From assembly GCF_023746535.1 (NCBI RefSeq), contig NZ_CP098747.1:3833501-3897500 (forward strand): a stretch of 64,000 nt of DNA, written 5' to 3'. This stretch comes from Sneathiella marina. Lineage in GTDB: Bacteria; Pseudomonadota; Alphaproteobacteria; Sneathiellales; Sneathiellaceae. The notes below the pieces were generated by a model. It did no database searches. It was not told the origin of the DNA and saw only the letters and a list, made by a program, of their open reading frames with translations. Position 1 is the stretch's first letter, and each line of letters begins with the position of its first letter. This document shows positions 18 to 26,446 of this stretch, in pieces. The position numbers were made by a program, and so were the translations under genes.

Positions 18-1724
18 ATGACTGCGACGAGCATCATAAAAGCAGCCCGAAAACCTTTGAAACGGTTTTTTACAGTCGGCCGTTTGCGTCTGGTGAGCGG
101 ACTGGTACTGATGGTGTTTCTTACCGGTCACCTACTCAATCATTCTTTGGGGCTTATTTCACTTAATGCCATGGAAATCGGCAGGGTAGTCTTTCTTGAC
201 ATCTGGCGGAGCCTGCCGGGAACCATTCTGCTGATCGCCGCGATTGCCGTTCATATGATCTTGGTGTTTGCCAAGATGCTATCAATCCATTCCTATCGTC
301 GGCTACCTGCCCGTGAAATCATACAGATCGTCATGGGCTTCGCCATACCACCCCTGATCCTTTTACATATTGTCGGCACCCGGGTTGTGCATGAGATTTA
401 CGGCATAGATGACAGCTACGCCTTCGTATTGTTCAGCCTGTGGGTCGCCACGCCGCTGCAAGCCCTGTTGCAAAGCGCGGCCTTGATTTTCGCCTGGGTG
501 CATGGCTGCCTTGGCGTCCATTTCTGGTTACGGTTGAAGCCATGGTACAGCTCAGCGTTCCCGATCTTATACAGTCTCTCCCTAGCATTACCGATACTGG
601 CGCTAACAGGATTTATCAATGGCGCCAACGAAGTAGAAGATCTGTTTTCAGATGCCGCCTGGAGAACTGCTTTTTTTGCGGAAATGAACCTGCCAGAGGG
701 CCTGGTCGGTTGGGCATATGGGATCCGCGACCAAGGGCTGCGCCTTATGATCGTCGGCCTGGTCCTGTTGGGGGCAAGCCGATTATTCTGGATCGCTCAT
801 TTTAAGCGAAAGAAGCTGATTACGGTTTCCTACCCGGATGGTAAAACCGTTTCCGCACCTCCTGGAATTACTGTTCTCGAGGCAAGCAACCTTGGTAATA
901 TTCCACATGCTTCTGTTTGTGGCGGGCGGGGTCGTTGCTCAACTTGCCGGATCAGAGTCATTGAGGGAGAAATGGATCTGGAACCGCCAAGCGAACGAGA
1001 AGCTGCGGTTCTTAAGCGCGTCGGTGCCGTTGACGGGACCCGGCTCGCCTGTCAGGTAAAACCTGCCACGGATATCTCCGTGGTCCCGCTCCTTCCCGCC
1101 AAATCCACGCCGCAGCAGGGATTTAATCAGCCAGGCTATCTGCATGGGCAGGAAAAGGAAATTGCCATCCTGTTTGCTGACTTAAGGTCCTTTACCAAAT
1201 TCTCAGAACAAAAACTTCCTTATGACGTTGTTTTCGTGATCAACCAGTATTTTCGTCACATGGGAGAAGCGATTGAAGCGAGCGGCGGCCATCTTGACAA
1301 GTTTATTGGTGACGGTGTGATGGCCTTGTTCGGGTTAGACGACACTCCTGAAATCGCAAGCCAGAAAGCACTTGATGCCGCAATGGCCATGGCAGCCGAG
1401 CTTGAGATAATGAACAGCAACCTTAAGTCCGACTTACCCAGCCCTCTTCGAATCGGGATTGGACTGCATTTGGGTCAAGTAATTGTCGGCAAGATGGGGT
1501 ATGGCAACGCCACCTCCATCACAGCCATTGGTGACGCGGTCAATACGGCAAGCCGTCTTGAAACCATGAACAAAGAATTTTCAAGCCAGCTTATATTCTC
1601 GAGCGAGCTCGCCAAACGATCCGGTCGAGATTTTTCCAATATACGTTCTGAAGAAGTGATGGTGCGCGGTCGCGAAGAGACCATCGCAATCTACGTAGTA
1701 GAAGACGCCAAAATCATGACCTAA
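18..1724 (+). CDS. Membrane adenylate cyclase with heme-anchor-like and [2Fe-2S] ferredoxin domains
   Basis: Predicted class III cyclase making cAMP from ATP at the inner membrane. Residues about 20-260 form a multi-helix membrane region rich in intramembrane histidines (H38, H41, H79, H117, H125, H162, H168), resembling the cytochrome b anchor of succinate dehydrogenase. Residues about 268-360 are a ferredoxin domain with C301, C307, C310 and C345, the usual 2Fe-2S spacing. Residues about 380-565 are the cyclase domain: metal ligands D388 and D432, K428 and D506 as adenine-selecting residues, and N509 and R513 for the transition state. The same architecture is known in rhizobial CyaC, a quinone/redox-responsive cyclase. 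The ATG sits in an ATGA overlap with a possible stop of an upstream frame, so it may be the last gene of an operon. Redox control here is inferred. Confidence 0.9.
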   Translation: MTATSIIKAARKPLKRFFTVGRLRLVSGLVLMVFLTGHLLNHSLGLISLNAMEIGRVVFLDIWRSLPGTILLIAAIAVHMILVFAKMLSIHSYRRLPAREIIQIVMGFAIPPLILLHIVGTRVVHEIYGIDDSYAFVLFSLWVATPLQALLQSAALIFAWVHGCLGVHFWLRLKPWYSSAFPILYSLSLALPILALTGFINGANEVEDLFSDAAWRTAFFAEMNLPEGLVGWAYGIRDQGLRLMIVGLVLLGASRLFWIAHFKRKKLITVSYPDGKTVSAPPGITVLEASNLGNIPHASVCGGRGRCSTCRIRVIEGEMDLEPPSEREAAVLKRVGAVDGTRLACQVKPATDISVVPLLPAKSTPQQGFNQPGYLHGQEKEIAILFADLRSFTKFSEQKLPYDVVFVINQYFRHMGEAIEASGGHLDKFIGDGVMALFGLDDTPEIASQKALDAAMAMAAELEIMNSNLKSDLPSPLRIGIGLHLGQVIVGKMGYGNATSITAIGDAVNTASRLETMNKEFSSQLIFSSELAKRSGRDFSNIRSEEVMVRGREETIAIYVVEDAKIMT

Positions 1725-10109: not shown

Positions 10110-11459
10110 ATGTGGCAACAAGTAAAAAAAACAATCCTAGGGGATGAAATCCAAGGGCAGCTCCCTGGTCGGGTGAAAGACGCGATTGAGCGTCAACAAA
10201 CTCAGTCGGAGATATTGATTGCCTGGGTACAGGTATTTATCGTCCTGACCTTTTCGACGCTCTACGGTCTGTCGCCGAAAACTTTTTCATCGGACGCCAT
10301 GTTCGCACCTGTCCCCTATGCTCTTGCAGCTTATGGCATATTCACATTGTTCCGGCTCGCACTTGCTTATTCCGGCCGGGTTGGGCCGGTATTTCTTTCT
10401 CTGTCCGTTGTCGCAGACATGGTTTTGCTGATGTTTCTCATTTGGAGCTTTCATGTCCAGTATGAACAACCGGCGTCTTTCTATCTGAAATCTCCGACTC
10501 TTCTGTATGTTTTCATTTTCATTGCCCTTCGTGCCTTGCGTTTTGAGGCAGCCTACGTGTTGTTGGCTGGCGCCTCGGCGGCCATTGGTTGGATGATCCT
10601 GCTCGGCTATGCCGTTTTCTTTGATGATGGTATGACCAATGTTACCCGAGATTACGTCGTCTATACGATGTCTCACAAAATACTTCTGGGAGCGGAGTTT
10701 GACAAAGTCATTAGTATTGTCGTTGTCACATTAATCTTGGCCCTGGTCATTGTCAGGGGCCGCAAGCTTTTGATAAATTCTGTCGCACAAGCCACGGCAG
10801 CCGAAGATTTATCCAGGTTCTTCTCTCCCGAAATTGCCGATCAGATAACCCATTCAGAAGGCTGGATCGAACCTGGTAAAGGGGAAGCACGGACCGCGGC
10901 AATTCTACATTGCGATTTACAGGGTTTCACAAAGCTGTCCATGGAAAGGCCGGCCAATGAAGTCATCTCGCTATTGGCGGAGTATCAGTCCCGAATGGTG
11001 CCGGTAATTCAACGGCATGGCGGAACCATCGATAAATTCCTCGGGGATGGTATTTTAGCCACCTTTGGCGCAGCCGTATCTACAGATCATTACGCCGCAG
11101 ATTGTCTTCGGGCGATGGAAGATCTCGTGGATGAAGCCGGGCATTGGTCTCGAGATCGTGAGGAAGAGGGTAAACTCGCCATGACAATTCGGTTCACTTC
11201 CGCCGTTGGCCCCATTGTTTTTGGCGCTGTGGGCGATGACAGTAGACTGGAATACACCGTCATTGGAGAGCCGGTAAATCTTGCGGCCAAATTGGACAAA
11301 CATGCCAAAGATGAAAAGGCCAACGCGGTCACCACGCGCGGCGCTGTCGATGCGGCTCAATTACAGGGCTATCTGCCGCGCGCGCATTTGGAAACACGAA
11401 AAAGCCGATCCGTAGAGGGGGTTAGCGGAACAGTGGACCTCGTTATTATATCCCCTTAA
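10110..11459 (+). CDS. Membrane-bound class III adenylate/guanylate cyclase
   Basis: N-terminal residues about 35-220 contain five or six hydrophobic helices; a short linker (LSRFFSPEIADQI) leads to a class III catalytic domain at about 260-445. Metal ligands D269 and D313 and base-contact K309 are present. In the second substrate motif the usual IGDxVNxAxR reads IGEPVNLAAK, so E386 replaces the adenine-selecting Asp and K394 replaces the transition-state Arg. Activity and nucleotide preference therefore need testing; cAMP is the default guess. It follows the methyltransferase by 45 bases and is convergent with the ABC operon. Confidence 0.87.
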   Translation: MWQQVKKTILGDEIQGQLPGRVKDAIERQQTQSEILIAWVQVFIVLTFSTLYGLSPKTFSSDAMFAPVPYALAAYGIFTLFRLALAYSGRVGPVFLSLSVVADMVLLMFLIWSFHVQYEQPASFYLKSPTLLYVFIFIALRALRFEAAYVLLAGASAAIGWMILLGYAVFFDDGMTNVTRDYVVYTMSHKILLGAEFDKVISIVVVTLILALVIVRGRKLLINSVAQATAAEDLSRFFSPEIADQITHSEGWIEPGKGEARTAAILHCDLQGFTKLSMERPANEVISLLAEYQSRMVPVIQRHGGTIDKFLGDGILATFGAAVSTDHYAADCLRAMEDLVDEAGHWSRDREEEGKLAMTIRFTSAVGPIVFGAVGDDSRLEYTVIGEPVNLAAKLDKHAKDEKANAVTTRGAVDAAQLQGYLPRAHLETRKSRSVEGVSGTVDLVIISP

Positions 11460-11473
11460 ATTGCCTGGTATGC

Positions 11474-12658
11474 TTACTTGTAAGGATCTGCGGCATCACG
11501 CAATCCATCCCCCAAGAAATTGAACGCCAGGACAACCAGGATCACCGGTACCACGGGGTAAATCAGCCACGGCGTCGTCGCCACCGCGTTGATATTGGTC
11601 GTTTCATTCAACAACACACCCCACGAAGTAATGGGCGGTCGCAATCCGAGGCCTAAGAAGGACAAAGCCGTTTCCCCCAGAATCATACTTGGCACCGCAA
11701 GGCTGGCGCTGGCAATCAAATGGCTGGCGAAGGAGGGCAATAAGTGACGTCCGATAATCCGTTGCGGCGGGGCACCCATAAGCTGCGCTGCCGTACAGAA
11801 ATCCTCTTCCCGAAGCGACAGGAATTTCGATCTTACAGCACGCGCCAAGCCCGGCCAATCAAGCAACCCGAGAATTACTGTCAGCCCAAAGAATACCAGA
11901 ATGGGCGACCAAGTGACCGGTAGAGCCGCCGATAGTGCAAGCCAAAGCGGCAGTTGCGGAATAGATTTCAATAGCTCTATGGTCCGCTGAATAACATTAT
12001 CGATCCAGCCGCCATAATATCCCGATATTCCGCCGAGAATAATACCAAGCGTAAAACTGATAATAATTCCGATAAGCCCAATGGTCAGGGAAATCCGCGT
12101 TCCATAGATTATCCGCGACAGAATATCCCTGCCTAGCCGATCCGTTCCCAGCCAGAAGAAAGTCGCTCTTTTTTTATCTGCTGCACAAACCAAATGCGAC
12201 GAGGCATTAAATAGTCCCCAGAATTTATATTCATCCCCGGAACAGAAAAAGCGCAAAGGATAGACCTGTTTATGATTTATCTGATACTCCCTTTTCAGGG
12301 TCTCACGGTTGAGCTTTTGTTTATAACCGTAAACAAACGGTCCAACAAATTCCCCTTCATGGAATAAATGAATGGCCTGCGGCGGGGCAAATATAAATTT
12401 CGTATTTCTACCATGCAAGTCATAGGGCGCCAGAAACTCGGATATCAAAATCGAAAGGTAAAAAAGCAACAATATAATGCCGCTGATCACCGCCACGCGA
12501 TGGCGGCGGAACTTCCACCACATCATCTGCCATTGAGACGCCATGTAAAAGCGTTCCTGCTCCGGCGACAGGGCTTCGACTGAATAGGGGTCAAACGGTT
12601 CGTCAGAATGCCAATGTTCTAACGGTTGTTCTTTGTTTGAACCGGTAGTGTCCGTCAT
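11474..12658 (-). CDS. ABC importer inner-membrane permease (DppC/OppC class) with large periplasmic loop
   Basis: Permease of the peptide/opine/oligosaccharide class. TM1 is at about 55-78, followed by a long periplasmic loop to about 165 containing C139 and C158, which could form a disulfide, and then WLGTDRLGRDILSRI, the conserved entry to the five-helix core. The EAA loop contacting the ATPase is AAQLMGAPPQRIIGRHLLP. The 394 residues exceed the common 280-340 because of the loop. Start overlaps the partner permease stop by 4 bases; it is the last gene of the long leftward operon. Confidence 0.92.
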   Translation of the reverse strand: MTDTTGSNKEQPLEHWHSDEPFDPYSVEALSPEQERFYMASQWQMMWWKFRRHRVAVISGIILLLFYLSILISEFLAPYDLHGRNTKFIFAPPQAIHLFHEGEFVGPFVYGYKQKLNRETLKREYQINHKQVYPLRFFCSGDEYKFWGLFNASSHLVCAADKKRATFFWLGTDRLGRDILSRIIYGTRISLTIGLIGIIISFTLGIILGGISGYYGGWIDNVIQRTIELLKSIPQLPLWLALSAALPVTWSPILVFFGLTVILGLLDWPGLARAVRSKFLSLREEDFCTAAQLMGAPPQRIIGRHLLPSFASHLIASASLAVPSMILGETALSFLGLGLRPPITSWGVLLNETTNINAVATTPWLIYPVVPVILVVLAFNFLGDGLRDAADPYK

Positions 12659-13683
12659 TTCGTCGCCCCCCCTGACAGTCGAATACGCGGATCCAGAACC
12701 GCGAGGAGCACATCCGAGACAAACATGCCAATAACCGTTAATAATGCCAGGAACATCAAAAGTGAACCAGCCATATACTGATCCTGGTTTTGCAATGCTT
12801 CAAGCAACAATGGACCGACGGTCGGTAAACTCAAAACCATGCTGACGATCACTGATCCGGAAATAACATCCGGTAAAAGATTACCGATATCAGCAATAAA
12901 CGGATTGAGCGACATGCGGATTGGATATTTGACCAGAGCTTTTAGTCTCGGCACACCCTTGGCACGTGCAGTGGTCACATATTGTTTTTGCAATTCATCC
13001 AGTAAATTTGCCCGCAATCGCCTAATCATGGACGCTGTGCCACTCGTTCCAATGACGATAACCGGAATCAACATATGATCCATGATTGACAGGGCTTTAT
13101 CAAATGACCATGGCTGATCGACATACTTGTCATCCATAAGCCCGCCAATGGAAATGCCAAAATACACATTTGCATAATACAGAAGCACCATGGCCAGCAA
13201 AAAGTTGGGCGTCGCCAGTCCCAGATAGCCGACAAGCGTAAATCCGTAGTCGCCAATGGAATATTGCCGCGTTGCCGAATATACCCCGATGGGAAAGGCG
13301 ACAATATAAATGAAGACAATCGTCGAGAAATTGATCAGGAAAGATAAACCAAGCCGATCGCCGATAACTTCTCGCACCGGCAGATCATATGCGAAAGATT
13401 GACCCCAGTCTCCCTGTATCATACCTGAAAAACCATTCGGGCCGGGCCAGAACCCCATCCAGATGGCATATTGTTCTATGAGTGGTTTATCTAGCGAATA
13501 TTGCTCCCTGTAAAAGGCTATTTTCGCGAGGGCAGAGGCCGATTCACCTTGCGATTTTAGTTCTTCGAGCTGATTAGACAGATAGTCGCCCGGCGGCAAC
13601 TGAATGATAATAAACGTCAGAATACTGATTACCAACAAGGTCGGTATCATAACCAGTACTCTGTGTACAAAGTAAGTAAACAT
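12655..13683 (-). CDS. ABC importer inner-membrane permease (DppB/OppB class)
   Basis: A 342-residue six-helix permease beginning with the typical MFTYFVHRVLVMIPTLLVIS helix. It has a long first periplasmic loop, the SFLINFSTIVFIYIVAFPIGVYSA core helices, and an EAA-type loop TTARAKGVPRLKALVKYPIR. It pairs with the adjacent DppC-type permease to form the channel. A 165-base gap separates it from the binding-protein gene upstream; that gap holds a small hairpin (13705-13719) but no gene. Confidence 0.92.
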   Translation of the reverse strand: MFTYFVHRVLVMIPTLLVISILTFIIIQLPPGDYLSNQLEELKSQGESASALAKIAFYREQYSLDKPLIEQYAIWMGFWPGPNGFSGMIQGDWGQSFAYDLPVREVIGDRLGLSFLINFSTIVFIYIVAFPIGVYSATRQYSIGDYGFTLVGYLGLATPNFLLAMVLLYYANVYFGISIGGLMDDKYVDQPWSFDKALSIMDHMLIPVIVIGTSGTASMIRRLRANLLDELQKQYVTTARAKGVPRLKALVKYPIRMSLNPFIADIGNLLPDVISGSVIVSMVLSLPTVGPLLLEALQNQDQYMAGSLLMFLALLTVIGMFVSDVLLAVLDPRIRLSGGATK

Positions 13684-13848
13684 TCAGCCCCGCTCTATGA
13701 GGTGCCGACTTCGTGTCGGTTCAACCCCGCTCCCCATTTGCATTTTTCACTTAAAACGATGCCATCGTCAACAAATCGTCGGCAATCGGCGTAAAGTTAT
13801 TTATTTTCTTATCAAAATTGCTGCTATTCAAACCCGCTTGCATTCAAA

Positions 13849-15747
13849 TTATTTATCGAACCAAAATAGATCCGGATGATAGATCCCGAACTGCGCCCCT
13901 GGATTCCAGTTAAAAATTGCTTCTTCGGGAACGTTCTTGAGCGTGTTCTTGACAATGATAGGCTGCAAAATAGCGCCAACGATACCAATGGTGAATTGCT
14001 GCTCTGCATGAATATCGAGCATTTCCCGCCAAATCGCCGCCTTCTCTTCCGTATCAGTAGATTTCAGCCATTTGTCATAGAGGTCATATAAGAGGATGGC
14101 TTCGGGTATGTCGATGGGCTCACCGGACTTACCCTTTGTTTCGTGATACTGGCCCCATTTCGGCCATTGATAGCTGATCTGATTGGTCGGCGCCCGTGTG
14201 GCTGGGCTGGATGCCGCGTTGGGAATGCCATTTTCAAACCCGGCCCAGACCGACATCACGGTTTCACCAGAGAAGATACGATTGCGAAATACTGCGCGTT
14301 GCGATGGCTTGGTAAATACGGAGATACCTATTTCCTGCCACGCTTCATTTACCAGCTCAAGAATATCCGATTGCTCTGTGGTCTCGCCGGCTGTTTCTAT
14401 AACGATGACAAATTTCTCGCCATCTGGAAGAAGCCGATGGCCGTCTTCATCGCGATCCGTCAGTCCCATCTCGTCGAGTAACTCATTTGCCATATCCGGA
14501 TCATATTCCGCCCATTTGGTGCGTAATTCTTCAGTATAGAAGTCACTTTGTTCCTGAACCGCATTATTCCCCTCAACTGCCAAGCCGAAGAACAGAGTAT
14601 CATTGATTTCTTCACGGTCGATGGCCAGAGACAGCGCCCGCCGGAACCTCACGTCGCGCATATACCCGCGCCACATCTCACTCTCTGCATTGAGATTTGG
14701 GAATAGTACGAAATGAGAGCCACGAACAGTCGGCCAAAGCAAAGTCTTGTAATTTGACCGCTCTTCGTTTTCTTTCAGAAATGTTGCATCCTGAAGCTGT
14801 ATGCCTCGAGCCTGCAAATCCGTGTCCCCTGACGCCGCTTTAGCGGAAATCAACTTTCCTTCCGATACATTGAATATGAGTTCATCAATATAGGGCAGCT
14901 GGCGACCTTCTGTATCAACCCTGTGAAAATAAGGATTTCTTTCACCCACAAAGCGCGTTGCCGGCGACGCTGTTGTGTTGCGCCATGGTTGTAATGTCGG
15001 CAGGTTGGGATTGTCAAACTTGTACAGGTTGTCGTTACGATTATGTTCCGATGCCCAGGACTTCATTTTGATCTTTTGGATTTTATTAAGCTTGGAAACA
15101 TCAATATATTTCTCATGAAATCTTTTCAGATAGTGAGCCGGGCTATAAATCAGCAGAGGCGAGGCGCCCGCCAGAAGCGGTAAAAAATTCGGATTTGGTG
15201 CCTCCCATGTATAGATAACCGTTTGCGCATCCGGAAACTCGACTTTCGGCAACTTCCCGCCTACCAAAAGCTCTGCCGGGGGGCCTGCAGGGAACAGCTT
15301 CATGTTGCCTGCGACATCCTCCCACCAATATCTAAAGTCTTCTGACGTAAAGGGAGCACCGTCCGACCATTTGTGACCGGCCCGGAGTTTCAGTGTAAAC
15401 TTCCGGCCTTCCGTCACTTCAAATGATTCCAAAATATCGGCCTCAAGTTCTAAGTCCACTGTATATCCAACAAGACGTGCATAGCCATAAACAAACATCA
15501 GTTTGACATCTGATGGATTACCGATCAGCGTATGCAGGCGGCCTCCATATTTTCCCAATTCCTGGCCTTCTCCAGGCTCAACAACAAGTGGCACTGAGGG
15601 TAGTCTTTCGGCAACGGGCGAAAGTTCGCCTTTCGCCACCGCGGGCTTGAAAAAAGGAACTTCGGTTGCATGCACCTGACTCCAGACCAATAGCACAAGA
15701 GCACCTGCTACTAAATTCATCCCTTGCTTCAAAAATCCTGACATCAA
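13849..15747 (-). CDS. Extracytoplasmic solute-binding protein, family 5 (peptide/oligosaccharide type)
   Basis: Periplasmic binding protein of 632 residues. A signal peptide is clear: a short charged start, hydrophobic core AGALVLLVWS, and a likely cleavage after VHA near residue 27. No lipobox cysteine is seen. The family hallmark regions FTSEDFRYWWEDV and DVRFRRALSLAIDREEIN are present. It is larger than OppA/DppA (about 510-540), in the size range of the rhizobial alpha-galactoside and muropeptide-type binding proteins, so peptides, muropeptides or oligosaccharides are candidate ligands. Start overlaps the ATPase stop by 4. Confidence 0.93.
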   Translation of the reverse strand: MMSGFLKQGMNLVAGALVLLVWSQVHATEVPFFKPAVAKGELSPVAERLPSVPLVVEPGEGQELGKYGGRLHTLIGNPSDVKLMFVYGYARLVGYTVDLELEADILESFEVTEGRKFTLKLRAGHKWSDGAPFTSEDFRYWWEDVAGNMKLFPAGPPAELLVGGKLPKVEFPDAQTVIYTWEAPNPNFLPLLAGASPLLIYSPAHYLKRFHEKYIDVSKLNKIQKIKMKSWASEHNRNDNLYKFDNPNLPTLQPWRNTTASPATRFVGERNPYFHRVDTEGRQLPYIDELIFNVSEGKLISAKAASGDTDLQARGIQLQDATFLKENEERSNYKTLLWPTVRGSHFVLFPNLNAESEMWRGYMRDVRFRRALSLAIDREEINDTLFFGLAVEGNNAVQEQSDFYTEELRTKWAEYDPDMANELLDEMGLTDRDEDGHRLLPDGEKFVIVIETAGETTEQSDILELVNEAWQEIGISVFTKPSQRAVFRNRIFSGETVMSVWAGFENGIPNAASSPATRAPTNQISYQWPKWGQYHETKGKSGEPIDIPEAILLYDLYDKWLKSTDTEEKAAIWREMLDIHAEQQFTIGIVGAILQPIIVKNTLKNVPEEAIFNWNPGAQFGIYHPDLFWFDK

Positions 15748-17636
15748 AGCCTTAACTCCTTCGCGTCTGTTTCTTCGCTTACGCGGACATAATGTCCTTC
15801 TCCAATATCCATCATGACCGGACTACTGCTCGTATTCACGGTAAAAGGTTGTGGCCATAATTCCGGGTTCGATGCCTTCTCCTCAACCAAATGGGAAAAA
15901 TCCAGCCTTCTGTTTGGATCCGGTTCCGGGACAGCCGCAAGAAGTCGCTTGGTATAGGGATGTACCGGGTTTTTAAATAATACATCCTTCGGCGCCGTCT
16001 CGACCAGTCGGCCTTTACACATCACGGCAATTCGATCTGCAATGTAATCAACCACCGCCAGATTATGCGAGATAAACAAATATGTCAGCCCCAACTCTTT
16101 CTGGAGATCTTTCAGTAGATTCAAAATTTGCGCTTGAATGGATACATCCAACGCCGACACCGGTTCATCGCATATAAGCAAATCGGGTTTCAAAGCGAGA
16201 GATCGGGCAATCCCAATGCGTTGCCGTTGTCCACCCGAAAAAGAATGCGGATAGCGCCGTAAAAATCGAATGTCTAATCCCACCAGGGTCATCAATTCTT
16301 TCACTGTTTCTTCGCGTTCCGTAACGGTTCCCACGTTATGGATGACCAGTGGTTCCGAAATGATATCAAATACCGTCATACGCGGATTTAACGATGAAAA
16401 GGGGTCCTGAAAGATAAACTGGACCTTGTTTCTATAATCAAACAGCTCTTCGCCTTTTAGCGCCAGGACATCAACGTCCCGTCCACGGTCATTATAAGTC
16501 ACCGATCCGTCGCTTGCCGACAAGGCCCTCAAAATCAGCTTGGACAAAGTCGTTTTGCCACAACCGGACTCACCGACAAGACCGAGACATTCGCCAGGGC
16601 GAATAAAAAAGCTAACATTATCCACCGCAAGAATCTCACCACCGGGTTTGGAACCAAATAACGTGGATTTCCGCGTCGTAAAGGTTTTAGACAAATTCCG
16701 AACATCCAAAATCGGACTCTCATCGCCGCTTATAATCTCGCGGGGGTTGGCTTGCTCAAGAAAGCGACTGTTTTTGTCGCGCTTGATTTCACGAATTGGC
16801 GTCAGACGTTCTCCCGGTTTCATGTTAAACCTCGGGATGGCCCGCATAAGCGCTTTGAGATAGGGATGCTCCGGCGCGGCAAAGATATCGTCAAGGGTCC
16901 CTTGTTCCATGATCTTACCATGATACATGACAACAATTTCATCAGCCATGCTTGCGACGACTCCAAGGTCGTGGGTAATCATCAAAATGGCCATGCCAAG
17001 CTGTTTCTGCAGACCCTGCATCAAATCCAGTATCTGCGCCTGTATAGTCACATCCAGCGCCGTGGTTGGTTCATCGGCAATCAGGAGGGCTGGCTTACAG
17101 ATCATTGCCATCGCAATCATTGCCCGCTGGCGTAACCCGCCTGATAGTTCAAATGGATAGGTGTGCAGCGCTCCTTCCGGATCAGGAAAACCGACCAGTC
17201 GCAACATATCAATCGTAATTTGCTGGCCTTCTTCCTTGGTTTTCTCATGATGAAGATGCAGAGCTTCGGATATCTGATCACCAATCGTATGCAGCGGCGA
17301 CAGGGATGTCATTGGCTCCTGAAAGATGATCGAGATACGTCCACCACGGATATTTCGCATTTCCTTGCTATCAGGCTTCAACTTCGCGATATCGTAGAAA
17401 ACACCTGGTTTTTCAGGATCGAAAAACAAAATTTCGCCGCCGGTAATATGTGCGGGCTTGGGCAGAATAGACATAATAGCCTGACTGATAACCGATTTTC
17501 CGGAGCCAGACTCGCCAACCAGCGCAACTGTTTTTCCTTCCGGGACTCGAAAACTCACCCCTTCGACAGCCTTGATAACACCCTCTGCTACCCGGAACTC
17601 GACTTTTAAATCTCTGACGAGGAGAACATTTGCCAT
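15744..17636 (-). CDS. ABC importer ATPase with two fused nucleotide-binding domains
   Basis: Tandem ATPase of 630 residues like YejF/GsiA, energising the two permeases. Domain 1 has Walker A G41-ESGSGKS48, signature [14 protein letters not shown] (the Q is L) and Walker [13 protein letters not shown]. Domain 2, after about residue 320, has GESGCGKTT, canonical [14 protein letters not shown] and [12 protein letters not shown]. Each domain ends with an oligopeptide-transporter C-terminal region. It precedes the binding-protein gene in the order of transcription, which is unusual but leaves the transporter complete: ATPase, receptor, two permeases. Confidence 0.95.
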
Positions 17637-18151
17637 TAACTAAAGGTCCCTTTGACGTAGAACGGGTTTTCTGGAGAACCGGATATTCGCAGCGCCCGTA
17701 AATTGCGGATCGTCGATGCATCAAAAACAACCCCGTTCATGGACGCAGCCACATGGGCCAGCTTCACCAGTTCATCAAATTCTGAAATTGTTGAATCAAT
17801 ACCCAATCCCAAACCCTTGCCTTTCAATTTGAGATGCATCCAACCCGCTTCCCGATCACGACGCGTCGAGTAATAGCTAAGTTTGAAGCCTCCCAACTCC
17901 TCCCATTTGATAGCCCTGTTAATGGGGCCGATCATGTTTATTCCAATTTGATTGACCTCTAATCGGGTCAATTGTCGGATTATTGCCCGCACTCCATAGC
18001 AAAAAAACAATACTGCCAGAAATGCCAACAAATAAACAATGACAGAAGAAGGGTTTAACAACAAGAGCGGAACTGATGTTAAAGCAAGTCCGAATAACGC
18101 CCGGAAATAACTCCCAAGCAAGTCTTGAAAGGAATAGGCAAAAACTTTCAT
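17636..18151 (-). CDS. Small membrane protein of unknown function
   Basis: Unrecognised 171-residue protein. Two hydrophobic helices lie in the first 60 residues (LFGLALTSVPLLLL and VIVYLLAFLAVLFFCYGVRAI), followed by a cytosolic region resembling small PH-like or DUF membrane domains (repeating INMIGP, WEELGGFKLSYYST and LKLKGKGLGLGIDS beta-rich stretches). The stop overlaps the ATPase start by one base (TAATG) and it begins 3 bases after the deacetylase stop. It therefore bridges the glycan genes and the ABC importer in one transcript, hinting at a linking role; function unknown. Confidence 0.75.
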   Translation of the reverse strand: MKVFAYSFQDLLGSYFRALFGLALTSVPLLLLNPSSVIVYLLAFLAVLFFCYGVRAIIRQLTRLEVNQIGINMIGPINRAIKWEELGGFKLSYYSTRRDREAGWMHLKLKGKGLGLGIDSTISEFDELVKLAHVAASMNGVVFDASTIRNLRALRISGSPENPFYVKGTFS

Positions 18152-18154
18152 CGG

Positions 18155-18991
18155 TCAGCTATTATCATCGGCAGGCTCCGCTTCTACTTTAGGCAGAATA
18201 ATATCTTCCGAGATTTCATCGATCAGAGCAATTGCCGCCGGTAAGGGAATCCATCTGACACTAGAATGATTGCATAAAAATGACATGAGCTGATAAATTT
18301 GCGCCCATACCTCTTCATCATGCACCAAATGATGGGTCAGCAAACCGGTCGGTTCTCGTGGATCTGCGCGACCGGTTCTCCGCGCAATCAAATGTTCCAG
18401 AACCATCGTCAAAATCTGGTCTGTTTCAAGGGAGCTGCGACTCCCACGCCAATCTATAGGATCAACATGGGCATTGATTTCCACCATACCGGCTACTGGC
18501 ACCGCCTTGGACCGTTGTTTATATCTCGAAAGCCCAATATACCCCAATTTGGGTAACTGTTGAAGCACCTTGTCATCAATTCTATTCCAAGGAGGCACAA
18601 AGAACGGTAAAAATTGATCACCAAATAGCTGGCTCAGAATGCTTTGGCCGTTTTGAAGATCGGCCTCCATTTCCACAATTGGCCTGATGTTGGAAAATTC
18701 CGATTTTTTTTCTTTTGGATCCGCATAGTTGTGATGATGAAACCCATGCTGCAGGATAAAACAATCCGGTACGTGATCTGTCAGGGTCGAATCAACGGCT
18801 TCCGGTATGACCGCCAGTGCCAGCGGAATATTAAAATGATCTCGAAGACTGATCAGGCGGTCGAGGGCCGGCGAGGGCGCCACGAGATCATCATCCCGCC
18901 ACCAGAATGTCGCCAAGCGCTTCTCTGACGTCCATAAATCAAGTTCAGCAGTGAGGTCCTGCCAGCTGGTCACGTAATATCTCCGGTCCAT
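18155..18991 (-). CDS. Polysaccharide deacetylase-like protein
   Basis: A 278-residue NodB-superfamily protein. The early motif W-R32-D33-D34-D35 after the first beta strand and the Q-H82-G-F-H85-H86-H87 cluster after AVIPEAV fit the metal-binding motifs 1 and 2 of this fold. A later PPWNR segment corresponds to motif 3. No signal peptide is seen, so it would act in the cytosol on a sugar nucleotide, glycolipid or short glycan, unlike secreted chitin deacetylases. The start lies inside the preceding glycosyltransferase (22-base overlap). Confidence 0.83.
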   Translation of the reverse strand: MDRRYYVTSWQDLTAELDLWTSEKRLATFWWRDDDLVAPSPALDRLISLRDHFNIPLALAVIPEAVDSTLTDHVPDCFILQHGFHHHNYADPKEKKSEFSNIRPIVEMEADLQNGQSILSQLFGDQFLPFFVPPWNRIDDKVLQQLPKLGYIGLSRYKQRSKAVPVAGMVEINAHVDPIDWRGSRSSLETDQILTMVLEHLIARRTGRADPREPTGLLTHHLVHDEEVWAQIYQLMSFLCNHSSVRWIPLPAAIALIDEISEDIILPKVEAEPADDNS

Positions 18992-20124
18992 TTCCTGATT
19001 AAATCAACGGAATTTGCCCCACCATCTGTATTGATGTGAGCTGTCGCCGGTGGCCCGGCAAGTGCATCTTCAACTTTTACCGCAAGAATTTCAGCGGTCA
19101 GGCCATTTTCGTCGGCGATCTGCAACACCCCTTTCTGTGCCAGCAACCGGGCCCGCAAGGTTTGCTCGGTTTCAAGACCACCGGCATATGGGACAATAAC
19201 CGCCCGACATTTCGCATAGAGGACCTCCATGACCGTATTATAGCCGCCCTGACTGATGGACAGGGTGCAATTCATCAACAAAGTCGTGAAATCTTTTCGC
19301 GCCCGCTCGACAATGACGCCGTCCGGCGCCAAGGCCAACAACTCCTCAAAAATGCTGTCTTCAACGGTTGCACCAACCATCATCCGCCATGTCATATTTC
19401 TGGCCGATGTCAATGCGCGTGCTTTCATGGCTGTCTTCAACAAATCAGTCCCCACTGCACCGCCGCCGCTGGAAACTATTACTTCGCCGTCCCCTGGTGC
19501 TCCCGCTGGGCCTTTGACGCCCGTCCGATCCACCACATATCCTGTATAGAACAATCGATCCTGAATTCGGCTGGTATGCGGAAAAGTTTGATCGAGGGAG
19601 ATCAAGTCCGGATCTCCGTGAACCAGAACATAATTGAAATAGGTTTCAACCAGAGACAGCATTTCATCATTCCGACCGGGCTTGTTCTGCGCAACAAGGA
19701 TATCTCTGACGGAAGAAATGATCAGCGGCGGGCGGTCGGCAGCTTTAGCAGCGTCGAGAAGAGGCAACAGCTCAAACCTCATCTGACGGCGACCAAAGGG
19801 GAACAACTCAAACATCAGGATATCTGGCTTAACCTCCCGCCAAAGATCAAGCAGGATACCTGCCCGCTTTTGCCGCCAGTCATCATCGATCTGCTCCCCA
19901 TCTTCATCTACCAGCACTTTGAAAAACAAATCTGTCGCCCGGGTCGCTGGCAGCTGTACTAGTCGGGCGCCTCCCATATCGATATCAATCTTGTGGCCGC
20001 CGGATACCACCGTGACGTCAAAACCCGCCCTTACCATATTGCGAGTGAGAGTGGCTGCCCGACGTAAATGACCAATTCCCAGAAGGTGCTGGACATAAAA
20101 AAGTACTTTCTTCGGGGAAGACAT
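18970..20124 (-). CDS. MurG-like (GT28-type) glycosyltransferase
   Basis: A 384-residue GT-B protein. The N-terminal GIGHLRRAATLTRNM segment corresponds to the glycine-rich acceptor loop of MurG-type enzymes. The C-terminal half has a predicted donor site SISQGGYNTVMEVLYAKCRAVIVPY followed by ETEQTLRARLL, close in layout to the UDP-sugar site of MurG. It is not MurG itself: the linkage and substrates are unknown and it lies in a non-mur cluster. Similar proteins are annotated in databases as predicted glycosyltransferases (COG4671). Confidence 0.85.
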   Translation of the reverse strand: MSSPKKVLFYVQHLLGIGHLRRAATLTRNMVRAGFDVTVVSGGHKIDIDMGGARLVQLPATRATDLFFKVLVDEDGEQIDDDWRQKRAGILLDLWREVKPDILMFELFPFGRRQMRFELLPLLDAAKAADRPPLIISSVRDILVAQNKPGRNDEMLSLVETYFNYVLVHGDPDLISLDQTFPHTSRIQDRLFYTGYVVDRTGVKGPAGAPGDGEVIVSSGGGAVGTDLLKTAMKARALTSARNMTWRMMVGATVEDSIFEELLALAPDGVIVERARKDFTTLLMNCTLSISQGGYNTVMEVLYAKCRAVIVPYAGGLETEQTLRARLLAQKGVLQIADENGLTAEILAVKVEDALAGPPATAHINTDGGANSVDLIRKWTGDIT

Positions 20125-20129
20125 ATCGG

Positions 20130-20711
20130 TTATTTGCTTTCCAGATTAATATTAATACGCTCGGGGCGGATAACCCCTGTCTCTTCCAGAGTAAAAAGAT
20201 GCCCTGCAGACCAGTTAAACTCAACTGGTAATTCTTCGGTCATATCCCAATCATAGGCGAGGGACTGGGCTGCGCGGATGACGCCTTTATGCGTGACTGC
20301 AATCGTGTCGCCCTCAAGGTTCTTCAGCCAGGGTTTGAGACGCGCAACAACCATTGCCGGAGATTCTCCGCCCGGAGGTGTCATATGACACCCTCGCGCT
20401 TCAATTTCGGCCATATCCGACCCATAAAGTTGCCGGAGTTCCGAGATGGTCCTGCCTTCCCATTTACCCCAATCCATTTCAATCAGGGCCGGTTCTTGTC
20501 GAATCAATCGCGCGCCGAGCAATTGCGCCGTTTCCCGGGTGCGGCCAAGTGGGCTGACCGACCAAGCATAATCCTTAAACTCATTGGGTATAGCGCATTT
20601 TTTCAAATGCCTGATCCCATCCTCGCATAAGGGAATATCCCGTCGGCCTTGAAGCTTTTTCTCAAGGTTCCATTGCGTTTTGCCATGTCGAATAAACAGG
20701 ATACGCTTCAT
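20130..20711 (-). CDS. Histidine phosphatase superfamily protein
   Basis: Branch-1 histidine phosphatase, 193 residues. The phospho-acceptor motif is R8-H9-G10 in FIRHGKTQWN, with R57 (SPLGRTRETA), the acid donor near E78 (IEMDWGKWEG) and the second catalytic H141 (VTHKG). The family includes sugar-phosphate and CobC-type phosphatases. Placed between two glycosyltransferases with a 4-base overlap upstream and a 5-base gap downstream, a role on a sugar phosphate or polyprenyl/sugar intermediate is plausible but unproven. Confidence 0.9.
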   Translation of the reverse strand: MKRILFIRHGKTQWNLEKKLQGRRDIPLCEDGIRHLKKCAIPNEFKDYAWSVSPLGRTRETAQLLGARLIRQEPALIEMDWGKWEGRTISELRQLYGSDMAEIEARGCHMTPPGGESPAMVVARLKPWLKNLEGDTIAVTHKGVIRAAQSLAYDWDMTEELPVEFNWSAGHLFTLEETGVIRPERININLESK

Positions 20712-21841
20712 TTCAGCACTTTCCCAATATAGTGCTTCAGGGTTTTGGCTGCCTTTTCCAGACCGCGCTCTGATCGCACAAACTGATGTGCAGCTTCGGA
20801 CATTTTCCCGCGAACAGATAAAGAAGCCAGTAAAAAATCCACTGCCTCGGCAAACGCCCCAAAATCCCCCTCTTCTGTCAGCAAACCTGTCTGCCCGTCT
20901 TTCACCACATCCGGAACCCCTCTTATTTTACCGGCCACAACCGGCAGCCCGCACACTTGCGCTTCCAAAAACGCCATTCCATAGGCTTCGCCATGGGCAG
21001 GCCATACATAGACATCGGCAAATCTGTATACCGCAGGTAATATTGATGACGGTTGTTGCCCTAAATAGACAATTCTATCCACGAAAGGCGATAGCAACTT
21101 TTCGATATCTTCACGGCGATCCCCATCGCCTACGATCAGCAGCTGCCAGTCATCCGTCTTGAGCAACGGCAGCATCAATCCTATCTGCTCATAGGACATA
21201 AACTTATCACCGCTCCGCATCATAGCGACCGCAAGCAAGTTCTTTTTATCCCGCTGACCTCCAGCTGCGACCACGAGGTCTTCAACCCTCACATTTTCAT
21301 TTGCCTCTGTAAGAAAGGCTTCTGTGTCAAGAAACGGCGGTAGGAATACCAATTGACTATCATCGGCAATAAGCGACTTGAGACAAGCACCGTCCAGATT
21401 TGTCATGTGAAACACACAGGCCGCCTGAGTAATTGCCCTGGCCGCCGCATCATAGCCCGGCTTCCACGGTCCATTTGCCTGTTTCGGGGCGTGACTGGCT
21501 TCGGCAATAAAATATGGGATGTTCAATTTTTCACAGACATATGGTCCGATCCAATCCGGGGATTTGTGATAAACATGGTAGGTGAACCAGCCTTCGGGCA
21601 TTTGCGCTGGATCTGCCCGCCATGCCGTAACTAGTCTTTCGGCTTCAACGCGCCCCTTACGTTCATTGCCCGCCTGGATCGCTGCGTCTCCTGATGTCTC
21701 CAGGCTGCGTAGGCGGGAAACAAGTTCAAGATCAAAGCCGGCATTTTCCAGTGCCTTCCAAAGCAATCTGCCCATCCGACGATCGCCGGACGGGGTTGGG
21801 TGATCCGGTGGTTTCATGGGGGCATAAAATGCAAGCTTCAC
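20708..21841 (-). CDS. Glycosyltransferase family 4 protein
   Basis: Retaining GT-B glycosyltransferase of 377 residues. The C-terminal donor domain has the E-x7-E motif in EAYGMAFLE, followed by CGLPVVAGKIRGVPDVV and the QTGLL loop. The N-terminal acceptor domain starts MKLAFYAPMKPPDHPTPSGDRRMGR, with a glycine-containing first loop. No signal or membrane helix; presumably peripheral on the cytosolic face. Start and stop each overlap a neighbour by 4 bases. Confidence 0.9.
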   Translation of the reverse strand: MKLAFYAPMKPPDHPTPSGDRRMGRLLWKALENAGFDLELVSRLRSLETSGDAAIQAGNERKGRVEAERLVTAWRADPAQMPEGWFTYHVYHKSPDWIGPYVCEKLNIPYFIAEASHAPKQANGPWKPGYDAAARAITQAACVFHMTNLDGACLKSLIADDSQLVFLPPFLDTEAFLTEANENVRVEDLVVAAGGQRDKKNLLAVAMMRSGDKFMSYEQIGLMLPLLKTDDWQLLIVGDGDRREDIEKLLSPFVDRIVYLGQQPSSILPAVYRFADVYVWPAHGEAYGMAFLEAQVCGLPVVAGKIRGVPDVVKDGQTGLLTEEGDFGAFAEAVDFLLASLSVRGKMSEAAHQFVRSERGLEKAAKTLKHYIGKVLK

Positions 21842-23079
21842 AAGGCGCCTCCCAGTTTATCCGCCAGCTTTCCAATCCATTTGCCGGCATCAAATTGCGC
21901 CCTTAATTTCATGTTGCCCGCCACTGCAAGTTTTTCCCGCAGCTGCGGATCGCGGCAAAATTGAAGTATGGCGGCGGTCAATGCAGCTGGCGTCCGCTCC
22001 GGCACCAGCAAGCCCGTTTCATTTTCAATAATAAGTTCCGAAATCGCCGATACATCTGTCGCAATAACCGGTAGCCGCTGGCTTTGCGCCTCCATCAATA
22101 CATTGGGCAGACCGTCACGATCTCCATCTTCAGCTATTCGGCTCGCCAGCACAAAAATATCAGCGGCCTGCAACGCCAGCAGGACATCTTTCTGCGCCAG
22201 GGCACCACGCCATTGAACCCGGTCGGCAATTCCTAAATCAGCTGCTTGAGCTTTGAGCTGCGGCAGCAACGGACCTCCACCAATATGTGAAAAAGTCCAG
22301 TTTACTTCGGGCGGAAGTGCTGCCAAGGCGGTCAGCAGATCATCATATCCTTTTTTTATGACGGCGCGCCCGACTGACAGGAGCCTGACAGGATCAGCCA
22401 CTTCTGACCCATTCCGCGTGAATTCACGCATTTCAAATTCCGCAAACCGAGATAAATCCAGCCCGTGATACATCAACTCGACTTTCGCCCCATCGCGGGC
22501 AAGGCCCGACAGATATTTCGTATTCACCGACGTGCAGGTTACCAGCCATTGTAAATCATCCAGTTTTTCCCGCAGTTCCCATTCCGGTGAAGTCCAGATA
22601 TCCTTTGCATGGGCAGAACAGCTCCAGCGCAGATCCCGTATCATCGCGGCATATCTGGCAACAGATGCCGGAGTATGCAAAAAATGCGCATAAATCTGGG
22701 AGACTGTCTGTGGCAATTCGGCCGCCAATACCAGAGCTTGTCCGAATCTGCGTATTCTGTTGGGCGTCCGGTCTCGCCTCAAATCTTTCAACCATGTTTT
22801 TTTTGCCTGCTTATATCCGGGATAGTGTCGAACAACCTGCCAGGCCCTAAAAATCCGGATCGGCTCCTGATATAAATATTCCGGCAGATAATTCACAGGC
22901 GCCGCAATCTCATCATGGATAGGGTGGGTCTTGGTATCCGTCGGGTGGCGCAACGATATAAGCTGTAAATTTACACCGCGCTTCTGCAAAGCAAGCAGCT
23001 CCTGTGCAATAAATGTCTCTGAGAGGCGTGGATAGCCTTTTAAAACAACAGCGACTACCGGTAGTTTCTGATCATGCAC
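21838..23079 (-). CDS. Glycosyltransferase family 4 protein
   Basis: A 413-residue GT-B enzyme and first gene of the leftward cluster. The donor-site motif is D-x7-E (DGLPNVLME) preceded by ASRIAEDGDR, a variant common in colanic-acid-type (WcaL-like) transferases; LSVGRAVIKKGYDDL marks the start of the C-terminal domain. The N-terminus contains PRLSETFIAQEL, the acceptor loop typical of that group. The divergent 238-base region upstream presumably holds its promoter. Confidence 0.9.
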   Translation of the reverse strand: MHDQKLPVVAVVLKGYPRLSETFIAQELLALQKRGVNLQLISLRHPTDTKTHPIHDEIAAPVNYLPEYLYQEPIRIFRAWQVVRHYPGYKQAKKTWLKDLRRDRTPNRIRRFGQALVLAAELPQTVSQIYAHFLHTPASVARYAAMIRDLRWSCSAHAKDIWTSPEWELREKLDDLQWLVTCTSVNTKYLSGLARDGAKVELMYHGLDLSRFAEFEMREFTRNGSEVADPVRLLSVGRAVIKKGYDDLLTALAALPPEVNWTFSHIGGGPLLPQLKAQAADLGIADRVQWRGALAQKDVLLALQAADIFVLASRIAEDGDRDGLPNVLMEAQSQRLPVIATDVSAISELIIENETGLLVPERTPAALTAAILQFCRDPQLREKLAVAGNMKLRAQFDAGKWIGKLADKLGGAL

Positions 23080-23317: not shown

Positions 23318-25972
23318 ATGGAACACAGTATTTATAAGTATATTCTGCAGCATAGCAAAAAGCAGCAAGTCATACTTACGATAATGGCCATTCTGTCCTT
23401 TCCTTTTCTTTATGTTTATTTGCAGATACCAGCAATTATTATTGATAAAGCCATTTCAGCCAAAGACATCTCTTACCCAGTGGAATATTTCGGCTTCGAA
23501 ATAGATCAGCTTGCCTATCTGTATATGATGGTCGGGGTTTTTCTGTTGCTCGTGATCATTAATCAGGGCTTCAAATATATTATAAATGTATACCAGGGAA
23601 TCTCGGGGGAGCGCATGCTACGCCGTCTGAGGTTCCAGCTCTATAGTCGGATCCTGCGATTCCCGATGCCCACATTTAAAAAGAAAAGTCCTGGTGAAAT
23701 CATTCCAATGATTACGGCGGAAGTCGAACCATTGGGAGGATTTATTGGCGAGGCCTTTGCGGTTCCGATTTTTCAGGGCGGATATCTGCTGGTTATCATC
23801 AGTTTCCTGATTATCCAGAACTGGATTATGGCTGTCGCTGCAATTGCCCTTTACCCGCTACAAGCCTATTTTATTCCCAAGTTACAGAAAAAAGTTAATT
23901 TATTGGGAAAACAGCGCGTCAAGCTGGTTCGTGTTCTATCGGATCAAATCGGCGAAACGGTGAACGGAGCGGAAGAGGTTCATTCCCACGATGGTTCCAA
24001 CTTTCTAAGAGCCCGTTTTTCAAACCAGCTGGACAGCATTTATACCGTCCGCTATCGCATTTACATCCTGAAGTTTATTGTCAAATTCCTGAACAATTTC
24101 ATTCAGCAGCTTGGCCCCTTTTTCTTCTACGGGATCGGCGGCACCATGGTCATCAACGGTACTTTGGAAATTGGTGTTCTGGTTGCGGCCATCGGCGCAC
24201 ACAAGGAAATGGCGGCCCCCTGGAAAGAACTGCTGGCCTATTACCAGCGGCGTGAAGATGCCCGGATAAAATATGAACAGGTTGTCGAACAGTTTGAGCC
24301 CGCTGGCATGCGCGATGAAAGCAATCAGCTGGAGGAGCCAGAGGTTCTTCCGACACTTGATGGTGAAATGGTCGGCAGCAATATTGTCCTTGCCGATGAC
24401 ACTGGTTCCACATTACTGGAAGGCCTGAATGTTCGATTTGGCCTCAAGGAACGTGTCGCAATTGTCGGTCCGGCCGGATCCGGACGTGAAGCCCTCACAC
24501 GGGTGCTGGCCAGAATCATTGACCCCGATAGAGGTAATTTGACAGCTGGCAGCATCGATTTAACCCAAGCCCCCGAAGCAATTGTCGGACGCCGCTTTGC
24601 CTATGTGGGGCAGCATGGATATGTCTTCAATTCGACTTTGGGCGACAATCTTTTCTTCGGCTTGAAACATCGCCCGCTTCAGGAAAGCACCTATGAAGGC
24701 GCGGACAAAGCGCGACGAGAATTATATATTTCTGAAGCCAAGCTCACCGGGAATTCCGTTGATGATATGAACGCCAACTGGCTGGACTATGATCTTGCCT
24801 GCGTCAAAGATTCACACAGTCTCGACGTCCGCGCCCTGGATGTGTTGGCCATGGTGGATCTGAGTGAGGATGTATATCAACTGGGATTGCGCAGCGCCAT
24901 CGATCCGTTGGAATTCCCTGAAGCTGCGGAACTTATTCTCGCAGCTCGACGGCGCTTTTTCGAAAAGATTGAAAGCGACCCAAGTCTCAAGAATATGATC
25001 GAGGCATTTGAGCGGGATAGTTACAATACCAATGCGACCTTGGCTGAAAATCTCCTTTTCGGCACACCGGTCGGAACAGCTTTCGATTTGGATCGCATGG
25101 CGGAAAATTCCTATGTTCAGAAAATTATTGAAGACGCGGACCTAACCGAAACCTTCTTGCGTATGGGGTATCAAGTTGCATCTCTGATGGTCGAACTATT
25201 TGCCGGTTTGCCACCGGATCATGAATTCTTCCAGCTTTATGGTTTTATTTCCTCTGACGATTTGCCGGAATATCAAGCCATGAACAGCCGCATCGATTGG
25301 GATCATCTTGACCAACTACGGGAAGAAGACCGACTGAGATTTATGTCGCTACCCTTTAAGGTGATTCCGTCTCGCCATCGCCTTGGCGTATTGACAGATG
25401 ATATTCAGGAAAAAATCGTCAAGGCACGACATCAGTTTGCTGAAAACCTGCCGGACGAGCTGAAAGGCAGCGTCGCCTTCTTCAATGCCGATACTTATAG
25501 TGCCGCCACTAACCTGCAGGACAATATCCTGTTTGGTAAAATTTCCTTTGGCTACGCACAGGCCGCAGAGAAGATTGGCGCAGTTCTGGCCACCGTCGTG
25601 GAAGAAATGGATTTGAAACGGACAATTAGCGCCGTCGGCCTGAATTTCAGTGTTGGCACTGCTGGTGCGCGCCTGAGTGCTGTACAGCGACAGAAACTTT
25701 GTCTGGCACGGGCGATCATCAAACACCCGGATATGCTTATCCTAAATCAGGCAACCTCCTCTTTTGATGCGGCGACCGAACAACGCCTTATGAAAAACAT
25801 ATTGCAAGAGTTTAAAGGGCGCGGATTGGTCTGGTCATTGGATCATGCGGATAAAACAATGAATTTTGATCAAGTATTGGTATTGAAAAGTGGCAAGATC
25901 CAGGAAATGGGATCCCCAGAAAAATTATTTCCAGGCGGCGTAGAATCAGATGAAATGCTGTCGAATGCATAA
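23318..25972 (+). CDS. ABC exporter-like protein with degenerate, expanded ATPase domain
   Basis: An 884-residue protein. Residues about 15-310 form a six-helix exporter transmembrane domain. The nucleotide-binding region starts near 350 but departs from consensus: Walker A is GPAGSGRE (384-391, Lys replaced by R390), the signature is LSAVQ (786-790) for LSGGQ, and Walker B LILNQAT ends in N810-Q811 where D-E is expected; H843 of the switch is kept. Between the Q-loop (Q432) and signature lies an insert of nearly 300 residues. The post-Q-loop motif TLxxNLxFG occurs three times (439-448, 573-582, 731-740), suggesting internal duplication. Downstream, 18 bases on, is a cyclic-nucleotide-binding gene. 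Transport function and ATP hydrolysis are uncertain. Confidence 0.88.
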   Translation: MEHSIYKYILQHSKKQQVILTIMAILSFPFLYVYLQIPAIIIDKAISAKDISYPVEYFGFEIDQLAYLYMMVGVFLLLVIINQGFKYIINVYQGISGERMLRRLRFQLYSRILRFPMPTFKKKSPGEIIPMITAEVEPLGGFIGEAFAVPIFQGGYLLVIISFLIIQNWIMAVAAIALYPLQAYFIPKLQKKVNLLGKQRVKLVRVLSDQIGETVNGAEEVHSHDGSNFLRARFSNQLDSIYTVRYRIYILKFIVKFLNNFIQQLGPFFFYGIGGTMVINGTLEIGVLVAAIGAHKEMAAPWKELLAYYQRREDARIKYEQVVEQFEPAGMRDESNQLEEPEVLPTLDGEMVGSNIVLADDTGSTLLEGLNVRFGLKERVAIVGPAGSGREALTRVLARIIDPDRGNLTAGSIDLTQAPEAIVGRRFAYVGQHGYVFNSTLGDNLFFGLKHRPLQESTYEGADKARRELYISEAKLTGNSVDDMNANWLDYDLACVKDSHSLDVRALDVLAMVDLSEDVYQLGLRSAIDPLEFPEAAELILAARRRFFEKIESDPSLKNMIEAFERDSYNTNATLAENLLFGTPVGTAFDLDRMAENSYVQKIIEDADLTETFLRMGYQVASLMVELFAGLPPDHEFFQLYGFISSDDLPEYQAMNSRIDWDHLDQLREEDRLRFMSLPFKVIPSRHRLGVLTDDIQEKIVKARHQFAENLPDELKGSVAFFNADTYSAATNLQDNILFGKISFGYAQAAEKIGAVLATVVEEMDLKRTISAVGLNFSVGTAGARLSAVQRQKLCLARAIIKHPDMLILNQATSSFDAATEQRLMKNILQEFKGRGLVWSLDHADKTMNFDQVLVLKSGKIQEMGSPEKLFPGGVESDEMLSNA

Positions 25973-25990: not shown

Positions 25991-26446
25991 ATGAGCCTTA
26001 AAGAAGAAGTTGAAATCCTGCGGCAAATCCCTTTATTTGCGAAAATTGAGCCGTCAAAAATCAAATTACTCGCCTTCACTTCTGAACGGCTGACTTTCCA
26101 GCCTGGCGACCTGGTCTGTAAACAAGGCGACAATGGCGATGCCGCGTATTTTATTATGGCCGGAAGCGCTGATGTCATTGTCGATACGCCGTCGGGCCCT
26201 CTCACCGTTGCGACCTTGAGTAAAAATGACGTGGTCGGTGAAATTGCCATTTTGATCGATATCCCGCGGACCGCAACAATCCAGGCGGCAACAGAGCTGA
26301 CAACTTTGAAAATTACCAAAGACGTGTTTTTCCGGATGGTTACCGAATTTCCGGAAATGGCCGTTGAAATGATGCGGGTTTTGGCGGAAAGACTGGTCCG
26401 CACCACAGCCGAACTCCAAAAAGCCAAGGAAAACAATGGCTCCTGA
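25991..26446 (+). CDS. Stand-alone cyclic-nucleotide-binding domain protein
   Basis: A 151-residue single-domain protein. The beta-roll residues and phosphate-binding cassette G83-E84-I-A ... R93-T-A-T96 are intact, so it should bind cAMP or cGMP. After the domain comes only a C-terminal helix (MAVEMMRVLAERLVRTTAELQKAKE); no DNA-binding helix-turn-helix, unlike Crp. A strong AAGGAG lies 8 bases before the ATG at 25991, only 18 bases past the ABC stop, so the pair are co-expressed. A regulatory partner for the ABC-like protein is the natural inference. Confidence 0.9.
   Translation: MSLKEEVEILRQIPLFAKIEPSKIKLLAFTSERLTFQPGDLVCKQGDNGDAAYFIMAGSADVIVDTPSGPLTVATLSKNDVVGEIAILIDIPRTATIQAATELTTLKITKDVFFRMVTEFPEMAVEMMRVLAERLVRTTAELQKAKENNGS

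Follow-up and report, generated by a model that had tools for sequence, protein, structure and literature searches.

The open reading frame at 23318..25972 (+ strand) of the window, that is, the whole stretch of 64,000 nucleotides of Sneathiella marina DNA analysed here, encodes a pseudo-ATPase ABC-exporter-like protein of 884 aa (psABC), which on balance we take to be the ABC-exporter-fold part of a conserved pathway for a surface glycan and to be under cyclic-nucleotide control via a partner subunit. This view draws on the computed psABC family, the loss of its catalytic residues, its fold, the triplication of part of its ATPase domain, its partnership with a cyclic-nucleotide-binding (CNBD) protein and its co-inheritance with the glycosyltransferase GT4b.

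RESULTS

Fold and nucleotide site of psABC

The ABC-exporter membrane domain, delimited by Pfam ABC_membrane and family conservation, covers residues ~10-325 (23345..24292, +), of which residues 37-291 match PF00664 at 4.6e-24, with 86 bits against a cut-off of 28. The NBD core consists of an N-terminal half with a degenerate A-loop and Walker A (GPAGSGRE; 24350..24631, +) and a C-terminal half with LSAVQ, LILNQ, SSFD and LDHA (25673..25927, +), and the NBD matches Pfam ABC_tran (PF00005, 9.6e-15) split in two pieces. The best NCBIfam match is MsbA (TIGR02203, 5.6e-52), which at 177 bits is far below the cut-off of 602. In structural alignment, the full-length model, which is of middling quality (pLDDT 73, pTM 0.64), covers the ComA NBD 3vx4 in full (239 residues) at 1.9 A with a Z of 27, and its top matches include TmrAB and TM287/288; as modelled, the NBD fold is retained and its core is complete. 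The 4.07-Mb genome has one full-length copy of psABC and encodes nine further ABC_membrane proteins.

The sequence-only reading had described an eroded ATPase beside a retained membrane domain, and sequence and Pfam bear out each residue named for the window protein: R390 within the Walker A GPAGSGRE, the signature LSAVQ at 786-790, the amides N810 and Q811 in the Walker B LILNQ, and the H-loop residue H843. The retention of His, however, does not extend to the family, in which it occurs in just 11 of the 81 members whose alignment underlies all nucleotide-site counts given here. The LSGGQ signature was found in 0/81 members. The Walker A lysine is present in 25/81 and the S/T after it in 6/81, an acid (D/E) replacing this Mg2+-coordinating residue in 68/81; the Walker B Asp and Glu are present in 11/81 and 33/81, respectively, the A-loop aromatic in 4/81 and the Q-loop Gln in 23/81, and the D-loop Asp is retained in 75/81. 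Walker A K[ST] occurs together with Walker B DE in only three members (L104-L106), the signatures of which are VSQTL or MSQTL. Homologues combining K, LSGGQ and DE were looked for among the 81 members and none was found, and the canonical set of Walker A K[ST], Walker B DE and LSGGQ is likewise absent from the window protein. Canonical Walker A/B, signature and H-loop were found in 6/6 sampled ordinary exporters from the same genome. Beyond residue 345, 23 positions of psABC are nearly invariant, seven of them in NxxFG motifs and none catalytic; L786, at signature position 1, is the sole nucleotide-motif position among them.

The pseudo-ATPase reading thus has strong support from sequence, with 0/81 members carrying the canonical set, and because the catalytic motifs are lost across these members psABC is predicted to be without ATPase activity. 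Some members could still bind ATP, since the lysine persists in 25 and L104-L106 have both K[ST] and DE. At residues 390-391 (window 24485-24490), the family mostly has [RK][DE] for Walker A K[ST]. Conservation of an acid where Mg2+ would be coordinated suggests a newly acquired structural function, such as a salt bridge.

Partial triplication between Q-loop and signature

Three TLxxNLxFG motifs had been reported in the same reading, along with nearly 300 extra residues between Q-loop and signature and a duplication of partial ATPase domains. The motifs are all present (TLGDNLFFG, 440-448; TLAENLLFG, 574-582; NLQDNILFG, 732-740), but the third starts with N and departs from the strict consensus; the core common to all three is NxxFG (444-448, 578-582 and 736-740). 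Its Asn is kept in 79, 81 and 81 of the 81 members in the first, second and third motif, respectively, and G740 in 81/81. The distance from Q432 to L786 is 354 residues versus ~55 in exporters of the same genome, so that the extra length is indeed ~300 residues.

Profile comparisons delimit three repeat segments, S1 (residues 425-545, with the Q-loop, TLGDNLFFG and helices; 24590..24952, +), S2 (residues 546-640, with TLAENLLFG; 24953..25237, +) and S3 (residues 705-785, with NLQDNILFG; 25430..25672, +), the last of which runs into the signature position. When sub-alignments of the family were compared with hhalign, S2 matched S3 at P 2.8e-14, S1 matched S2 at 1.5e-6 and S1 matched S3 at 2.9e-5. 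Scans along psABC placed S3 on 541-636 (P = 3e-16) and 421-516 (P = 8e-6), with nothing comparable in windows wholly outside S1-S3 (P above 0.02). A Q-loop-to-signature profile, for which six ordinary exporters encoded in the psABC genome were used, matched psABC at 425-560 (8e-8), 555-660 (3e-5) and 715-785 (7e-7), and did not match any control region (P 0.15 or more). Because these comparisons join S1-S3 to one another and to the normal Q-loop/helical-subdomain segment, the segments are homologous and the partial triplication is real.

The copied unit is, however, this Q-loop/helical-subdomain segment rather than a half domain complete with a beta core. In the model, a helix begins with each motif (441-449, 575-580 and 733-738), and residues 440-780 are modelled as almost all helical with short strands only, so that a second beta core is not apparent in the insert and two half NBD folds were rejected. 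psABC thus has one intact NBD fold with extra Q-loop/helical segments rather than extra half NBDs. When modelled alone, the insert (440-726) was poorly folded (pLDDT 57), with no PDB match at E <= 0.001.

Distribution, selection and relatives

Full-length psABC homologues were found in 131/385 sampled Alphaproteobacteria genomes, a few of them split over contigs. They were also found in most Sneathiella genomes, in Ferrovibrio and on rhizobial megaplasmids, the last with 263 plasmid records. Outside this class, a draw of 398 genomes from across the phylum yielded only one match, a TMD-only protein. Among Sneathiella psABC pairs with estimable dS, dN/dS is 0.03-0.05 for the gene as a whole and does not exceed 0.1 in any part of it. 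Mean pairwise identity is highest in the membrane domain, at 55% versus 39-45% elsewhere, and this domain has many invariant polar and charged residues in the 81-member alignment. The family is under strong purifying selection.

A TMD-only paralogue, of about 400 aa, has no NBD, carries an extra N-terminal part and shares 38-41% identity with the membrane domain of psABC; because of long branches, its position in the tree is unsure. It lies in copper-resistance islands (L168:7542-8816; L170:7515-8726; L171:7000-8199; L172:10925-12148), and in all four loci a multicopper oxidase, CopB and/or a copper P-type ATPase is encoded nearby. These paralogues show that relatives of the psABC membrane domain are maintained without an ATPase. 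To our knowledge, no ABC membrane domain without an NBD has been described in connection with copper.

In Sinorhizobium meliloti, the psABC homologue is on pSymB at 841.7-844.4 kb. The copy of strain 1021 (841723-844435; L166) has 2713 bases versus 2712 in strain 2011 (841727-844438 of NC_020560), and its frame is broken; the extra base is either a sequencing error or a strain-specific frameshift. SMb20813, termed an msbA homologue (PMC10945364), is likely the S. meliloti copy. The gene msbA2 was rejected as the homologue, its operon mapping elsewhere, near 938 kb of pSymB.

Cyclic-nucleotide-binding partner and glycan genes

The next gene after psABC (25991..26446, +) encodes a stand-alone CNBD protein of 151 aa (Pfam cNMP_binding, 8.5e-18) with a complete phosphate-binding cassette (GEIAILIDIPRTAT), which is closest by sequence to the CNBDs of kinases and channels. 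Among 43 psABC loci, a CNBD gene directly follows psABC in 39 (25 found by script and 14, with overlapping stop-to-stop ORF ends, judged adjacent on inspection) and is fused to the psABC C-terminus in three, the remaining locus (L147) having no CNBD near psABC. Fusions were additionally found in L102, L103, L107, L111 and L112, of which L102 is from the same genome as L124, one of the 43 loci. The cassette, G-E...R-[TS]-A, is conserved at G83 (43/43), E84 (42/43), R93 (43/43), T/S94 (42/43) and A95 (42/43). The earlier suggestion of a cyclic-nucleotide link is thus much strengthened by a partner adjacent or fused in 42/43 loci and by its invariant ligand pocket; the gating itself is putative.

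A class III adenylate/guanylate cyclase (10110..11459, +; Pfam Guanylate_cyc, 5.6e-11) adjoins the importer genes described below and is a possible source of the cyclic nucleotide. Cyclases also occur near psABC in several rhizobial clusters. A second class III cyclase in the window (18-1724, +) has a 2Fe-2S ferredoxin (Fer2) domain, possibly making it redox-sensing, and is 44% identical to the cyclase beside the psABC cluster of Phyllobacterium.

Divergent from psABC lies the gene for the GT4-type glycosyltransferase GT4b (21838..23079, −), which shows near-perfect co-occurrence with psABC. It is followed in the same operon, on the same strand, by further conserved neighbours, encoding the GT4-type glycosyltransferase GT4a (20708..21841), a histidine-phosphatase family protein (20130..20711), a GT28/MurG-like glycosyltransferase (18970..20124), a polysaccharide-deacetylase-like protein (18155..18991; its Pfam match, 0.0021, is below the cut-off), a 171-aa protein without a Pfam match (17636..18151) and an oligopeptide-type ABC importer with two permeases, SBP_bac_5 and a double-NBD ATPase (11474..17636). 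Of the 43 loci, 34 have GT4b, 32 have GT4a, 29 have the importer ATPase and 28 have the phosphatase. No second half-exporter gene was seen in these loci among the conserved neighbours derived from the window. In the 385 class genomes, GT4b was found in 124/131 with psABC versus 1/254 without it, a count that ignores phylogeny. The co-occurrence is partly a product of linkage; GT4b was also present, at at least 51% identity, in 10/10 tested psABC genomes with unlinked or only partly linked clusters. Such co-inheritance suggests that cyclic nucleotides control a conserved pathway for a surface glycan.

DISCUSSION

Considering these results, we propose the following scenario for psABC. The protein is built on the type IV ABC-exporter fold, with the membrane domain retained and an NBD that preserves its fold but, judged by sequence, no longer has the residues for ATP binding and hydrolysis, and the partly triplicated stretch between Q-loop and signature gives an enlarged helical platform. 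The CNBD subunit, adjacent or fused, may dock on this platform, and its binding of cAMP or cGMP, rather than an ATP cycle, may switch the membrane domain. psABC would serve the surface-glycan pathway of the co-inherited glycosyltransferases, either by passing a glycan or lipid-linked precursor through the inner membrane or by keeping the glycosyltransferases at this membrane. The most specific form of this scenario, in which the ATP cycle has been abandoned and a CNBD seated on the triplicated platform switches the membrane domain and controls glycan export, making psABC a cyclic-nucleotide-gated ABC protein, is put forward tentatively.

The main rival, which we consider rather unlikely, holds that psABC transports nothing and is a membrane scaffold or receptor that gathers or controls glycosyltransferases upon cyclic-nucleotide binding. 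The dead NBD, the enlarged helical platform and the CNBD partner would all suit such a role, as would the near-perfect co-inheritance with a GT4 enzyme of cytosolic type, and the SUR proteins are a precedent for a regulatory role of ABC proteins. However, no part of psABC is better conserved than the membrane domain, and this conservation, with its many invariant polar and charged residues, suggests more than anchoring.

It is doubtful that psABC is instead the degenerate half of a heterodimeric exporter, with hydrolysis carried out by an active exporter encoded elsewhere in the genome and the CNBD only tuning it. In favour of this, degenerate half-transporters are known (PMC7756269), TmrAB and TM287/288 are among the top structural matches, and the genome encodes nine other ABC_membrane proteins. 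On the other hand, the 43 loci have no second half-exporter among their conserved neighbours and the partner in 42 of them is a CNBD instead; moreover, known degenerate halves usually still bind ATP, whereas psABC has lost A-loop, Walker A and signature alike. Less probable still is an MsbA-type lipid or glycan flippase with drifted motifs that still binds and perhaps weakly hydrolyses ATP. The match to MsbA, although far below its cut-off, the 25 members with the Walker lysine, the K[ST] and DE of L104-L106 and the D-loop Asp would fit this, but not the absence of LSGGQ from all members, the acid in place of the Mg2+-coordinating S/T, the Walker B Asp in only 11 members or the A-loop aromatic in only four. 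The catalytic motifs lost in the window protein could also mean that an ordinary exporter has left a decaying copy or a pseudogene here, but this is ruled out for practical purposes because full-length homologues are widespread (131/385 genomes), dN/dS is about 0.04 and synteny is conserved.

The database label of psABC proteins, ‘ABC transporter ATP-binding protein’, thus stands against a canonical ATPase site in none of the 81 proteins examined. If psABC proteins work, the ABC-exporter fold would in their case operate with no hydrolysis of ATP, and the CNBD sensor would be its likely control. About one in three of the Alphaproteobacteria sampled carry the family, among them rhizobia that are genetic models (S. 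meliloti pSymB), and the surface-glycan pathway tied to it is directly testable. No description of the psABC family was found in the literature on degenerate, cyclic-nucleotide-linked and pseudo ABC transporters, a coverage mostly outside subscription journals.

To judge from its sequence, psABC has the fold of the ABC exporter superfamily but lacks what defines an active ABC transporter. It shares the membrane domain and complete NBD fold with type IV ABC exporters (MsbA, Sav1866, ComA/PCAT1) and differs from them in having canonical sets in 0/81 members, an insert of ~300 residues with two extra Q-loop/helical segments, and a CNBD partner. In SUR1/SUR2 and CFTR (ABCC8/9 and ABCC7), the ABC fold serves regulation or gating rather than pumping. 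The likeness to psABC is in the way of working only; SUR and CFTR retain ATP binding and one active site, whereas the nucleotide sensor of psABC is a separate CNBD. Bacterial cyclic-nucleotide-gated channels (SthK; MlotiK1 of Mesorhizobium) also join a membrane protein to a CNBD, which the psABC CNBD matches by sequence, but theirs is a six-helix potassium channel with voltage-sensor and pore, whereas the membrane part of psABC has the ABC exporter fold (ABC_membrane). The degenerate-site heterodimers (TM287/288, TmrAB, BmrCD, TAP, MsRv1273c/72c) have a non-canonical signature and Walker B like psABC. Known degenerate exporters, however, pair a dead site with a live one (PMC7756269), whereas for psABC no active partner gene was seen among the conserved neighbours in the 43 loci, and Walker A and the A-loop are lost as well. 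Finally, S. meliloti MsbA2 (SMb21191) belongs to the exporter-type ABC proteins and has ties to glycosyltransferases and to an unknown polysaccharide (PMC3687685, PMC12239276); although encoded by a separate gene from the psABC homologue, it resembles psABC in its tie to glycosyltransferases.
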